DNA from: Pegea sp. RAD2-039
Taxonomy: Eukaryota; Chordata; Thaliacea; Salpida; Salpidae
NCBI GenBank assembly: GCA_034620365.1
Contig: JAQGEQ010000290.1
Coordinates: forward strand, 186,001-250,000
DNA: 64,000 nt
Direction: 5' to 3'
This document shows positions 1 to 10,652 of the stretch, piece after piece. A program made the translations under genes and the position numbers. The stretch's first letter is position 1; each line of letters starts with the position of its first letter. A model generated the notes under the pieces. The model made no database searches. It was not told the DNA's origin and worked only from the letters and a program-made list of their open reading frames with translations.

Positions 1-3000
1 CGACGTTTGTCGATCGATTGTGAAGCAACTCGTCACGACGCCTCAACACCTTCTAATCGACTTCAACAAAAGGTTGTCATGGCAACTAATACGCGTTTCC
101 CACTAACCCACTAACCCCAACCCCCTTGGTAATCAACAACATCAATTTGATGACGTCATCATCATAGGAAGACACCAAACAAGCTCAGTTCCTTGGAATC
201 GCGGTCGTCTACTTTATTTCGGTGCTGATGGTTTCCAAATATCGAGATATTTTAGATCCTGTTGGTTACGAACGTTTACGAAATGAAAATGTTCCACACC
301 GCTCAGGTATTTCCCCGTTTCATTGCTGTCTGGTTGCTAAGCGACAATTTGTAGTTGACAACAACACATCAGATCGAAGTAGTGATGACGTTGTTGGTGA
401 TGATGACGTCACAATTGGTGAAGATCATTCAACTGGTTTGTAAATTGTTAAAAATAGAAATTTTTTGCTCTTTTTTCGTCTTTCTGACGTATTTGTGATC
501 AATTATTCATAATGTAAACAAAATTTGATCGATAATCGCGTCTCTGACGTCATCTTATTAAATCTCATTCACAGATGAAGATGTAAAGTTGAAAGAAAGC
601 ACCAACGTAAAAGTAAGTCCTCTTCATCCTGATCTTCAACCTGATCTTGATCTTCATCCTGATCTTCATCCTGATCTTGATCTTCATCTTGATCTTCATC
701 CTGATCTTCATCTTCATCCTGATCTTGATCTTCATCTTGATCTTCATCCTGATCTTCATCCTGATCTTCATCTTCTGATCTTCATCCTGATCTTCATCTT
801 CATCCTGATCTTCATCTTTTAGGACATTCTTCGTAATCTCACCAAAAAGAGTCCAACTTCTAAATCAATGACGTCACCGACTTTATCGAATCTGAAGAAC
901 AATGAACAAGTGAGAAAGAAGTCCCAGAAACGCGGATGAATACTAAATCCCAATTTTTAGGTGAAATCGATTCAATCAGCGTTTCAATCTTTTGATCGAA
1001 GCGTAGTGGTCAAGTCCACGCCCCAAAAAGGTGCCCCTGTTTGTTTATACATCATATATTTACTCATATGACTAAATAGGTTCAACAAATGGTCAACAAA
1101 CCCGACTTCCACCTCACTTCAACACTGAACACATCTCACCAAGCAATTGTTAGTTTTATATCCGCTAAATGGAGTAAAGAGTCTCGATGTTTTTCAGATT
1201 CCGATGTTTCTTCACAATTAGAACGTTCCATGAGTAATTTATCATCAATCATCAAAGATATTTTTGTCGATTTTTCATCTTATCTCAGCAAAACTCTAAT
1301 TGGTAGTCACGGGCAGGAACTACTGGTTGAAGGTAAGTTCTACATCCGGGTATTTCCCAAATCTGAAACAATTTCGATAAAAGGATTGAATTGTATGAAG
1401 TCTCATACCTCGGTGGTGGAAATTGTGATGTTGTTATGTTCACAAGAATGGCAAAACTCAATTCAGAAAAATGCTGGACTTGCTTTTATCGAATTAATTA
1501 ACGAAGGAAGGTAAGCGGTCGTCAAGCACAGCACTTGACAACCGACATCTTTGTTCTTTCTACAGGATTTTGTGCCACGCCATGAAGGAGCACCTCGTTC
1601 GTGTTGCTAATGAAGCTGATTTCATTTTAAGTAAACAAAAAGCGGAAGAAGTAAAACAGCACGCGGCTTTTCAGGTTGAGCTTGTGACGTCATCACTACT
1701 GTTACGTCATCACTCAATTTTGCAGTCAGCAAATGCGATGTATACGTCACAACAACGCGATGAAGAGAAGCAATGTGATTCGTTGATTAGTGCAGCGAAA
1801 CATCGCGACCACGCTCAAGCAAAAGCTCTTAAAAACCGAATCACGAATATTTTAACAAATAAGCTCGGAGCATGGGGATCAGATTTTGACAGGTGGTCCT
1901 CGTTTGTGGTCGTCATTTGTGGTCCTCGTTTGTGGTCCTCGTTTGTGGTCGTCATTTGTGGTCCTCGTTTATGGTCGTCATTTGTGGTCCTCGTTTGTGG
2001 TCCTCGTTTGTGGTCGTCATTTGTGGTCCTCGTTTATGGTCGTCATTTGTGGTCCTCGTTTGTGGTCCTCGTTTGTGGTCGTCATTTGTGGTCCTCGTTT
2101 GTGGTCCTCGTTTGTGGTCCTCGTTTGTGGTCATCATTTGTGGTCCTCGTTTATGGTCGTCATTTGTGGTCCTCGTTTGTGGTCGTCATTTGTGGTCCTC
2201 GTTTGTGGTCGTCATTTGTGGTCCTCGTTTGTGGTCGTCATTTGTGGTCCTCGTTTGTGGTCGTCATTTGTGGTCCTCGTTTGTGGTCGTCATTTGTGGT
2301 CCTCGTTTGTGGTCCTCGTTTGTAGTCCTCATTTGTGGTTCTCGTTTGTGGTCGTCGTTTGTGGTTCTCGTTTGTGGTCCTCGTTTGTGGTTCTGATTTG
2401 TGGTCCTCGTTTGTGGTCATGATTTGTGGTCCTCATTTGTGGTCCTCGTTTGTGGTCCTTGTTTATGGTCATGATTTGTGGTCCTCGTCTGTGGTCCTCA
2501 TTCGTGGTCCTCGTTTGTGGTCCTCATTTGTGGTCCTCGTCTGTGGTCCTCGTCTGTGGTCCTCATTTGTGGTCCTCATTTGTGGTCCTCGTTTGTGGTC
2601 CTCGTTTGTGGTTCTCGTTTGTGGTCCTCATTTGTGGTCCTCATTTGTGGTTCTCATTTGCGGTTCTCGTTTGTGGTCCTCGTCTGTGGTCCTCGTTTGT
2701 GGTCCTGATTTGTGGTCCTGATTTGTGGTCCTCGTTTGTGGTCCTGATTTGTGGTCCTGATTTGTGGTCCTCGTTTGTGGTCCTCGTTTGTGGTCCTGGT
2801 GTATGGTCCTCATTTGTGGTCGTCATTTGTGGTCGTCATTTGTGGTCCTCGTTTTTGGTCGTCATTTGTGGTCATCGTTTGTGGTCCTCGTTTGTGGTCG
2901 TCATTTGTGGTCCTCGTTTGTGGTCCTCGTTTGTGGTCGTCATTTGTGGTCCTCGTTTGTGGTCCTCGTTTGTGGTTCTCGTTTGTAGTCCTGATTTGTG

Positions 3001-6000
3001 GTCCTGGTTTGTGGTCGTCATTTGCAGTATTTAATTTGCAGTATTTAATTTGCTTTTTCATTTTATTTTTATCTTTTTTGAAAACATTTTTTAATGAAAT
3101 TGTTTATTTTTAGCGAAGCGAAAGAATATTGGAGATTAGACGCGTGGGAAGATGACACGAGACGTCGTCGAAGATTTGTACGAAATCCGTACGGAACATC
3201 TCACAAGGAAGCTGCTCTTCAACAGCAACTACGTTCGTGACGTCATAATCACTATAACAAGATCGATGATGACGTCATTTCTAGTTTCAGTGACAGACGC
3301 TGCTGAAAGCGCTTCTAGCGGTAAACATCAAGTTAAACCATCGTTAGTGAAAAACACAGACAACTCAAGCGATGATGACGTCATCAGTGACGTCACATTC
3401 GAAACAGAAGTCGATCAAGACGAACTACAAGGTACATATGACGTTATCACATCATTACTTGACTTTCTATCTTAGGAACTGTCTCCTTATCAACGGAAGC
3501 AGCTTTAATATGTCCAGGTCTCTGTCTCCATGGCAACTTCTCAATAACAACAGAAGAAATCTTTTTTGAAGTTAACGACAAACACGAGTCATATTTGCAG
3601 TCAGATCCGAAGGTAACCACATGATGGCGTGCTACTATCATGACTTGAAATCGATTTGCCTCCCTCCCCCATCTCACAGCCTTCATTCGTTGCCAGTATT
3701 GTCATGACAACCCCATCTATACAGCGACTACAACCAACTAACAGTCAAATCGATTTTTTTCCTTTTTTTTTTGCGGTTTTTTATTGAATTTCTGTCTCAA
3801 GATCAAAAAACCGATTTTTTTTTCTACAAATACCCCAAAAAAAATTATGAAAAAAAAACGCAAAAAAAAAGAACTGAAAACGGAAATTTGTACAAAAAGC
3901 AAAAAAGTCCTTCAGGTGTTTGTACACGTGACGTCACTACCGATGACGTCAGAGTCGTTCAAAACTTTTATCATTTGTAATAATCTCACGAGTGATTCTC
4001 CAAACTTCGCGCGCAGCCATATCTAATGACGTAGCTGATGACGTCACAAACAAATCAACAGAAGGTAAAAAAAAATGAGGTAACCGTCGACATCGAAGAC
4101 AAGATACAAGTTGTAATAAGACACCCTGTTAACAAATGATGACGTCATCACTAACATATGTAATCGATGACGTCATACACACCTTGATTCGATCACCAAG
4201 TGTCTTGTTCATCCAATCAGCATCACGTGGATGTTTTTCACATTCATATAACAACAAGGTCTTCATATGTTTGTTGTTTAATGGACTTCCCGTGTAATCA
4301 AGATGTCTGAAGACGCGCGAATCAGTGATGACGTCATCATCATCATCACTTACCGATCACGAAGTGTCTTGAGAAGCGATAAACATTTCCGACGCAAACC
4401 TTCGCTATCTACTGATAATAATTTCTCTTCTGCATTTGCAAATGACATCAACCAAGCATCACTTTCACTTGCTCCACTAAACAGTCCATAGTTAGTTGTT
4501 GACCACTATAGACGTGGACAATTTACCTGTGCTTAGATTGAACCAATGGGGCCTCTTTGGACAGTAAACTGAAACCGTCCTGTTTAATATCATTTGCTAT
4601 GGACGGATAGGGCCATGTTGAATGTATTTCAGGCCAGTGTTGGGCAGACTGGGGCCACAGACGTGTACACTTAAACGCAGGTGTCAATCGAACCTAAAAA
4701 CACGTGTTTATGAAGTTATCGGTACTAACACGTGACCAATTACCAAAATATTGCTTCGAATAATGAGTCTGACGTCACTGGTGTTGGCGACTAATCGCGC
4801 GACTTCACCAGTTTGTGATTTGTCAATTCCTTGAGCTACTAAAGTTTGAAAACGCGATCGAACCTTGCGAGCTGATAAATATCTGCGCATGCGTATTAGA
4901 GACTGATGACGTCATCAGTGAACACAAACCCTGAAGCTGTGATGAATTCAACCCATAAAGACATACTACGTTTGCGTCCATCACTAAGTTTCAACATGGC
5001 ACAACCAGGGGCCACAACTCCGTCCTCGACCAAACTAAATACACCCATTTGATTCAGGTACAACACTACTTCATATTCGCCAGGTGAAATCACTTCTAGA
5101 CCTTCTAAACGACCATCAACCTCATTTAAAGAGCTGTTGAATAAAAAAAGTTCCTTGTCAAAAATGGCTTCTTAACAAATCTGGCCTAACCTAATAAATC
5201 TCGGTTCTTGCTGTTCAACTTCATTTAAAATACTTTTTACAATTCGACCAATATCTCGAACAGTTTGTGAAAGAGATAATTTTCTAGGAATTGTTCTTTC
5301 AACATGATATTTTTCAACATGATAAGCCAACATTGCTTGAGATTCAAACATTTTTATCATATCCAAATCATCATCACTACTTTTTATACTTTCCTATTTC
5401 TACTCTCAACTCAACAACGCCACCAAGTGGTTCATCACTAAAAAAACTTGGATTCAATCAAGTAATGACGTCATCAGTATCGCGTATGCGCTTTTTTCTT
5501 CCTGATATTTTTACTCTTTATATATACAACCCTTTTTTCCAACATAACAAAATCTGTTCGTTTTCACTTGATTTATTCCCTCCCCTCTGCTAGCCTGTCC
5601 CTCTACTTGGCGAGCTTCTGCAAATAACTCTTGAAAAAGCTTTTTACATGCAACTGTCAAGCACATGACCACCATCTACCTCCTCATGCCTCTACTATCG
5701 ACCAAACTTCATTTATATTTAATGTGTTTCTATCACACATGCTCAACAACGCCATCTACATTCAAAGGTGCTACAATTTGCTGAAGGTATCCACGGCAAG
5801 TGGCTTTTCCAGGAAGTAAGAGCAATCTTCTCTAGACGATATCTTCTTCAAAACACCGCAATTGAAATCTTCTTTGCCAACAGAAGTAACCTTTGACCTT
5901 CACCGTTTCTTTATGACGTCATCATTTCTTTTGCAGCTTCTGTTATGTTCTGCTTCAATGACCACGAAACCATGCGACGCGTCATCAACTGTCTACCTCG

Positions 6001-10529: not shown

Positions 10530-10652
10530 CTTTATTAAAATGACGTCATCATGTGCAACTATTCGAGCGATTTTTCAATCTTTTATCAAATGTATTTTTT
10601 GATGTTTCAAATTTCTTGTAGAAGCAAAAATTTAGAAACTTCCATATTAGGA

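Follow-up and report, generated by a model that had tools for sequence, protein, structure and literature searches.

Why should one palindromic octamer, TGACGTCA, crowd the left end of a 64,000-nucleotide stretch of Pegea sp. DNA (hereafter the window) and then stop just past the end of the Nbea gene? An exact-match count finds 38 copies in the window, 36 of them within 151-10548 (no strand assigned) and two further right, as the first-pass annotation had stated. Dinucleotide shuffles of the window contain 0.50 copies on average and two at most, and none of 100 shuffles reaches 38, a density thus far beyond chance. The abrupt end is equally real: the right edge (10519-10548, plus strand) is set by an octamer lying over the stop codon of Nbea (at 10519, gtg acg tca tag), followed by the final copy in the 3' UTR (10541). 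The left limit is an artefact of the window, as the cluster truly starts at position 177261 of the contig (C115), 8.7 kb ahead of the window. The whole cluster comprises 82 octamers, 38 of which belong to one 27-bp coding minisatellite. Both isolated copies to the right (starts 56758 and 58878, spanning 56758-58885, no strand assigned) have RTGACGTCAY flanks. An Rfam scan of the window gave no match at gathering scores.

We placed the 36 copies on hand-made gene models, built from the sequence and its reading frames (introns at 151, 545, and 9442 were called with the least certainty): 23 fall in introns, nine in coding exons, and four in UTRs or flanks. Most short introns had been said to carry the octamer, and 11 of the 15 hand-called ones indeed hold one or two copies. 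The PH-BEACH/BEACH region of Nbea (5937-7240, plus strand; Beach PF02138 match; exons 5937-6039, 6086-6201, 6250-6362, 6416-6556, 6609-6728, 6778-7080, and 7133-7240) has two octamers in 1004 bp of exon versus nine in 300 bp of six introns. These introns, all on the plus strand, are 6040-6085 (46 bp; octamers at 6047 and 6068), 6202-6249 (48 bp; 6210 and 6227), 6363-6415 (53 bp; 6385), 6557-6608 (52 bp; 6589), 6729-6777 (49 bp; 6733 and 6761), and 7081-7132 (52 bp; 7103). Elsewhere on the same strand of Nbea, octamers occur in introns 3233-3284 (52 bp; 3238 and 3270), 5886-5936 (51 bp; 5914), 9623-9675 (53 bp; 9644), and 10363-10423 (61 bp; 10367 and 10393), while the first bases of intron 1684-1725 (42 bp) overlap the octamer at 1685. 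Two exonic copies lie in a variable Nbea linker (3376-3395, plus strand, hand model). Finally, a mab-21-like gene nested in an Nbea intron (3950-5480, minus strand; Mab-21 PF03281 match on two joined exon pieces) has nine octamers at 3929-5466, of which the hand model assigns four to introns, two to exons, and three to UTRs or flanks.

The frequency of occupied short introns is what one would expect of an RNA-level signal, in which UGACGUCA would pair within or between introns or bind a splicing factor. However, exons, UTRs, and sparse single sites also carry the octamer, its position varies among the 15 hand-called short introns, and its flanks display neither extended pairing nor strand asymmetry. 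In Nbea, 25 A and 8 G are found to the left of 35 octamers, and 27 T and 6 C to the right of 35; owing to this lack of asymmetry, the octamer does not behave as a single-stranded RNA word, and we consider such a signal very improbable.

Exonic copies had been reported at coding positions that tolerate DDVI or VTS, and octamers are found on such codons. In Nbea, one copy (6719-6726, plus strand) covers the Asp-Val codons of ...SHDVKELIPEF..., kept as Asp-Val in PDB 1mi1 (NBEA) and as Asp-Ile in 1t77 (LRBA), and another (6870-6877, plus strand) covers Asp-Val codons kept in both structures. The same codons carry the octamer in a BEACH paralogue, and the octamer-bearing Asp-Val codons are conserved in human NBEA, with which they align without gaps. 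At conserved codons, the octamer thus arose through site-by-site change, not insertion. Among Asp-Val sites able to hold it, 48 of 58 do so near other octamers and six of 15 elsewhere; for Met/Val/Leu-Thr-Ser sites the figures are 49 of 62 and two of 32, all counts being taken from reading frames treated as putative exons, which may contain introns. In PFAS, it occupies one of three able sites at conserved Asp-Val codons. A coding minisatellite of 40 units has two changes among the 320 letters of its octamer columns, as opposed to 64 among 760 letters in the rest.

A tiny mobile element, or an introner-like origin of the introns, had also been proposed. Introners are similarly repeated across introns, and the presence of the octamer inside some minisatellites might likewise suggest spread. 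Yet the 15 short introns have no sequence in common beyond the octamer (13 shared 6-mers versus 14.4 expected), the flank preference fades over some 5 bp, exonic copies exist, and conserved human NBEA codons are occupied without gaps. Both proposals are disfavoured by these results, and we regard them as extremely unlikely.

Is the array a property of this locus? The 105.7-Mb genome contains 27,792 copies of TGACGTCA, a large excess over the 969 copies of the reversed word used as a control. This corresponds to a mean of 2.63 copies per 10 kb, which the window cluster exceeds about 13-fold. With so many copies and many other clusters, the suggestion of a domain specific to the Nbea/mab-21 locus does not hold, and locus-specific explanations were dropped in view of the genome-wide counts. 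Density is high genome-wide, yet strongly clumped rather than uniform, so that the refuting condition named in the first-pass annotation, a uniformly high density across the genome, fails to explain the cluster away. On C115, 145 of the 154 octamers belong to four clusters, which form gene-sized islands; 10-kb bins contain 5.92 copies on average (variance 171.9), and 15 of 26 are empty. On C1 (1.56 Mb), the first 100 copies among the matches listed give a mean of 0.64 per 10-kb bin and a variance of 2.35, with 107 of 157 bins empty and 13 copies in the largest. Octamer arrays are thus clumped in gene-sized islands, and Nbea is one such gene among many. Array-bearing genes form a mixed set of no obvious functional class.

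On C115, these genes are GC- and CpG-richer islands amid AT-rich sequence. Once octamers are masked, the G+C content of islands remains 0.372 versus 0.280, and CpG is also more frequent. Genes of this composition could simply hold more such words, and other CpG words (TCACGTGA, AACGCGAT, and CGCGCG) are indeed raised 8- to 11-fold in islands. However, the octamer stands 129- to 174-fold above what a first-order model of these islands predicts. Among the other palindromic 8-mers counted four times or more, none exceeds 22-fold. As a full account, composition is thus refuted, and we give it next to no chance.

The repeated unit is the bare octamer with RTGACGTCAY flanks. Such flanks surround 23,214 of the 27,792 octamers (83.5%), versus 228 of the 969 control words (23.5%), and their preference fades by about 5 bp. 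Left and right flanks are symmetric but vary independently: at 165 sites, complementary letters number 81 (83.1 expected) at distance 1, 53 (55.1 expected) at distance 2, and 67 (69.2 expected) at distance 3. A hairpin, a cruciform, and an RNA stem were rejected, as flank complementarity does not exceed the level expected of independent flanks. The core is very strict. In islands, the single clearly enriched one-letter variant is TGACGTAA, with 13 copies versus 1.8 expected (7.2-fold, on small numbers), while the background holds four versus 4.0 expected. End-letter variants reach 1.4- to 3.8-fold in islands (one to four copies each), and AP-1 sites are not enriched (0.5-fold). Genome-wide, the 24 one-letter neighbours of the octamer average 1,547 copies, 34% above the mean of 1,154 for neighbours of the reversed word, which indicates some decay or weak sites. 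Relics left in the background by CpG decay were also considered; as TGATGTCA/TGACATCA are raised 2.4-fold there and in islands alike, the background keeps no particular store of them, and this candidate was discarded.

TGACGTCA is the classic CREB/ATF-type protein binding site, or cAMP response element (CRE), and TGACGTAA a secondary CREB/ATF site. The independent, symmetric flanks fit the two half-sites of a dimer, and the bZIP link put forward in the first-pass annotation is consistent with their sequence. The best reading, to which we give about an even chance, is that of gene-body arrays of candidate CREB/ATF-like bZIP dimer sites, kept by selection and perhaps licensing transcription. A subset of genes would carry RTGACGTCAY arrays along the entire gene body, each copy being recognised as duplex DNA by a dimer of two-fold symmetry, most likely a bZIP of the CREB/ATF type. 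Sites would be preserved letter for letter in introns and UTRs, and in exons where amino acids permit, through selection rather than drive. They would be kept throughout the gene because a bound copy would count wherever it lies in the transcribed unit, and because the number of copies matters; arrays may hold genes open and transcribed. As a more tentative extension, which we consider clearly less probable, a single bZIP octamer, present in introns and UTRs and at almost all codon pairs that permit it across a large gene set, would act as a gene-identity code, marking whole transcription units as self and active against their AT-rich surroundings.

Several observations count in favour of bZIP arrays: the R/Y flanks, the TGACGTAA excess, the occupancy of able codon sites, the constancy of the octamer in the minisatellite, and an excess of exact 20-bp spacing (466 octamer pairs, where the average spacing has 170, counted with arrays and owed in part to minisatellites). 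In addition, the genome contains at least 12 bZIP matches (PF00170), including proteins that read by eye as CREB, Jun, Fos-like, and C/EBP. Against this reading count the mixed gene set, the absence of AP-1 enrichment, the raised frequency of one-letter neighbours, the one-third occupancy in PFAS, and the few octamers at six bZIP gene loci (0, 0, 2, 1, 0, and 0). Helical phasing of octamer spacings, which is weak and has a best period other than 10.5 bp, likewise speaks against it. The strict core does too, as transcription-factor sites as a rule tolerate variants and such strictness is unusual.

The main rival, which we consider rather unlikely, is a drive in which repair, methylation, or conversion turns near-matches into TGACGTCA or protects it, without benefit to individual genes. 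Its model is HIP1 (GCGATCGC) of cyanobacteria, also a palindromic octamer far above expectation, coding sequence included, for which a repair model has been put forward (PMC4390886). The excess of a palindromic octamer, the very strict core, the filling of exons as far as codons allow, and the octamer columns being the most constant part of the minisatellite all agree with such a drive. C5-methyltransferase domains are present as well (11 PF00145 matches in the genome), several of them in long intronless frames; however, the one intact methyltransferase that was read along its whole length carries a BAH and a catalytic domain of DNMT1 type, which correspond to no known site-specific type. Nor would a drive predict R/Y flanks of bZIP type or the accompanying TGACGTAA excess. 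The strong clumping in genes also argues against it, unless it mirrors the range of the process, be this open, transcribed, or CpG-unmethylated DNA. According to PMC4390886, one-letter deviations from HIP1 fall preferentially at its first or last letter, while the enriched deviant here alters the last-but-one letter. With its different word, animal host, and gene-clumped distribution, the present pattern thus departs from HIP1.

Another rival, which we hold to be improbable, views the octamers as meiotic hotspot or open-chromatin sites, as in fission yeast, with GC-rich islands as a by-product of GC-biased conversion. The islands remaining G+C- and CpG-richer after masking would fit, but conversion at a break-prone site is expected to remove the motif rather than multiply it. 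The core word and protein class are the same: the ade6-M26 hotspot, ATGACGT, is bound by the bZIP pair Atf1-Pcr1, which opens chromatin, although some fission-yeast CREs are no hotspots (both from PMC9775316). M26 is a single site studied in a yeast.

Returning to candidate bZIP arrays, the closest known element is the CRE itself, alike in core, R/Y flanks, and two-fold symmetry. In Caenorhabditis introns, periodic An/Tn clusters (PATCs) also form a repeated non-coding signal; they are A/T runs with a period of about 10 bp, unlike a factor's octamer with a putative licensing role. PATCs can prevent transgene silencing according to PMC7725773, and the licensing logic proposed for the octamer arrays would be the same as for this DNA of nematode germline genes. 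In PMC551538, TGACGTCA ranks among the top conserved 8-mers in all three multicellular groups compared, and the CRE is reported mainly upstream of genes, whereas here it fills gene bodies, coding exons included, at several copies per kb. Literature searches aimed at the octamer pattern found no report of it.

If this reading is true, a transcription-factor site has come to extend over entire gene bodies, with enough force to decide between synonymous codons and to occupy introns, and neither codon usage nor the content of short introns could be taken as neutral in such lineages. An animal would then have its equivalent of the iterated palindromes of bacteria, and genes could be told apart from the DNA around them by sequence. 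The two main explanations, selection for binding and a drive by conversion or repair, differ in the polymorphism and mutation spectra that they predict, and are hence distinguishable.

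The window holds 38 copies of the palindromic octamer TGACGTCA, the classic CREB/ATF site (CRE), 36 of which lie at 151-10548, exactly as the first-pass annotation had counted and located them. None of 100 shuffles of the window reached this number (shuffle mean 0.50). The same annotation proposed that such density could be specific to the Nbea/mab-21 locus, but the genome (105.7 Mb, 387 contigs) contains 27,792 copies, compared to 969 for the reversed word ACTGCAGT used as a control, and they are clumped elsewhere too. Nor is density uniformly high throughout the genome, the other possibility it had raised: octamer pairs 8-38 bp apart number 5,280 (none for the control, and about 226 under uniformity by our own arithmetic), and pairs 39-68 bp apart number 4,195 (2 for the control, about 219 under uniformity), so that the octamer is neither locus-specific nor uniform, but clumped. 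When up to one mismatch is allowed, counts become 64,917 for the octamer and 28,668 for the reversed word. The intact octamer is about 18 times as frequent as its mean one-letter neighbour (1,547 copies). This mean is about one third higher than for neighbours of the control (1,154), so near-misses are somewhat raised, though not proportionally to the intact word.

Besides some further stretches and loci, we analyzed the whole of contig C115 (JAQGEQ010000290.1, 258 kb), of which the window is 186001-250000. Of the contig's 154 octamers, 145 gather into four clusters lying at 61.8-68.2, 79.4-87.1, 111.2-116.6, and 177.3-196.5 kb, and nine are scattered across the remaining 200.6 kb. Outside clusters, the octamer is still about 9-fold above model expectation (9 versus 1.0 in 195 kb), and a tile picked regardless of octamers (L031) shows one per 10 kb. 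A 20-bp spacing is favoured, both among listed pairs (10 of 56) and genome-wide, where 466 pairs show it against an average of 170 for a spacing, a count that takes in minisatellites. Short 20-bp tandem arrays with one octamer per unit are found at C8:368056, C10:359772, C10:398481, and C1:3616342, and their unit sequences vary from place to place.

The gene under the cluster is Nbea (BEACH domain detected), and a mab-21-like gene (Mab-21 domain detected) is nested in one of its introns, on the opposite strand, at window positions 3950-5480. Vertebrate NBEA and LRBA likewise host MAB21L1 and MAB21L2. According to our hand gene models, introns hold 23 of the 36 copies, exons 9, and UTRs or flanks 4. 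The 15 short introns that could be bounded (42-61 bp, 757 bp in total) carry 16 octamers, with at least one in 11 of them; in the BEACH stretch, there are 9 octamers in a total of 300 bp of intron versus 2 in 1,004 bp of exon. The cluster ends where Nbea ends, one octamer lying over the stop codon and one beyond. To its right, window positions 11000-18400 are AT-rich and contain fragments of reverse transcriptase (RVT_1 at 17252-18316), the composition shift coinciding with the octamer edge. Nbea introns also contain large minisatellites at window positions 1893-3024 (26-bp unit, 43 copies) and 7276-9094 (14-bp unit, 132 copies), and PFAS has similar arrays of the TCTTCATC type.

In octamer-rich, gene-sized stretches (islands), the octamer exceeds a first-order model 129-fold (tandem repeats masked) to 174-fold, and is the sole palindromic 8-mer at that level of excess. 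Genome-wide, 23,214 of 27,792 copies are preceded by R and followed by Y; G and T are more weakly preferred further out, with no preference past about 5 bp. Left and right flanks of the same site show complementarity at a rate no higher than expected under independence (165 sites), and those in Nbea show no strand bias (35 sites). Symmetric, independent flanks without strand bias are a symmetric protein dimer's way of reading duplex DNA. This independence and lack of bias speak against hairpins and single-stranded RNA signals, and an RNA signal is a less likely reading. Among the 12 one-letter variant classes in islands, only TGACGTAA stands out (13 copies versus 1.8 expected), the others ranging from 0 to 3.8-fold with at most 8 copies each, and AP-1 sites show no excess there (0.5-fold). 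Judging from sequence, core, flanks, and symmetry are most simply explained by a putative CREB/ATF-type bZIP dimer. Other raised words in islands are TCACGTGA (11-fold), AACGCGAT/ATCGCGTT (10-fold), and CGCGCG (8-fold).

The odd feature is the extent of the arrays, throughout gene bodies and into codons, with few variants. Nbea BEACH exons encode two Asp-Val pairs at which the octamer is possible, and it is present at both. These pairs are conserved in human NBEA (1mi1), while LRBA (1t77) has Asp-Ile and Asp-Val; the paralogous BEACH gene carries octamers on the identical two codon pairs. In PFAS, three octamer-able Asp-Val pairs are conserved in 9n9w, one of which has the octamer, the others reading TGATGTCA and CGATGTTA. 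Pooling BEACH genes and PFAS, 5 of 7 conserved able sites carry it. In reading frames spanning 90 codons or more, octamers occupy 48 of 58 able Asp-Val sites near other octamers and 6 of 15 elsewhere, against about 4% expected from sparse-set codon use alone (GAC 182/733, GTC 141/940); for able Met/Val/Leu-Thr-Ser sites, the counts are 49 of 62 near other octamers and 2 of 32 elsewhere. Because the exon status of such frames is unproven and Asp-Val itself is commoner in octamer-rich ones, amino-acid change or introns read through contribute part of this occupancy, an inflation from which conserved Asp-Val sites are exempt. Left of the window, a 27-bp coding minisatellite in the Nbea reading frame (C115:180904-181983, about 40 units of VDDVTESEK) retains the octamer in 38 of 40 units, with 2 of 320 letters varying in octamer columns versus 64 of 760 in other columns, counts that are non-independent because the units are related through duplication.

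A process generating or guarding the word, as for HIP1, the highly iterated palindrome of cyanobacteria, would account well for such strictness and codon filling, but it leaves flanks, clumping, and variant spectrum unexplained, and we find it rather doubtful. A recombination hotspot and a mobile element are also less likely readings. Our preferred reading, at about even odds, is that selection would act on putative binding over the whole transcribed unit: a putative bZIP dimer would occupy sites along it, selection would retain them, and the arrays would license genes or mark their identity. The CRE and its cross-animal conservation (PMC551538) and iterated palindromes in cyanobacteria (PMC4390886) are already known. 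Gene-body CRE arrays in an animal are absent from the literature matches listed, whose coverage mostly leaves out subscription journals, and this lack of prior reports is weak evidence of novelty.

Other octamer-rich genes were recognised by their domains, most loci having been picked because of their octamers. They comprise a second BEACH gene (L030) and genes with BRCT (L002), SAM-PARP (L003), C2 (L005), and FH2 (L029) domains, which we take to be NBEAL-like, RFC1-like, tankyrase, RIM-like, and a formin, respectively, as well as PFAS (C115:110-115 kb), an ArfGAP-ankyrin gene (C115:67-68 kb), a Ras-family GTPase (L040), and two weak matches below Pfam's cut-off, PDS5 (L038) and a Myb/SANT protein (L041). 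No common functional class is apparent among the loci examined, which are mostly octamer-selected. Arrays are absent, for instance, from CCDC96/113, which lies in the window, and from six bZIP loci (0, 0, 2, 1, 0, and 0 octamers). With octamers masked, G+C content and CpG observed/expected ratio are 0.372 and 0.86 in islands, and 0.280 and 0.66 in the background. The genome encodes methylation enzymes, the C5-methylase family yielding 11 matches, eight of them in intronless stop-free frames of 603-873 codons (C57:819728-826344, C249:1740707, C32:10146-38173, C52:9209, and C262:183044), which may be retrocopies or element-borne. By eye, the usual Pro-Cys motif is absent from one methylase frame (L043); the sole frame examined in full (L042) combines BAH and methylase domains and is DNMT1-like.
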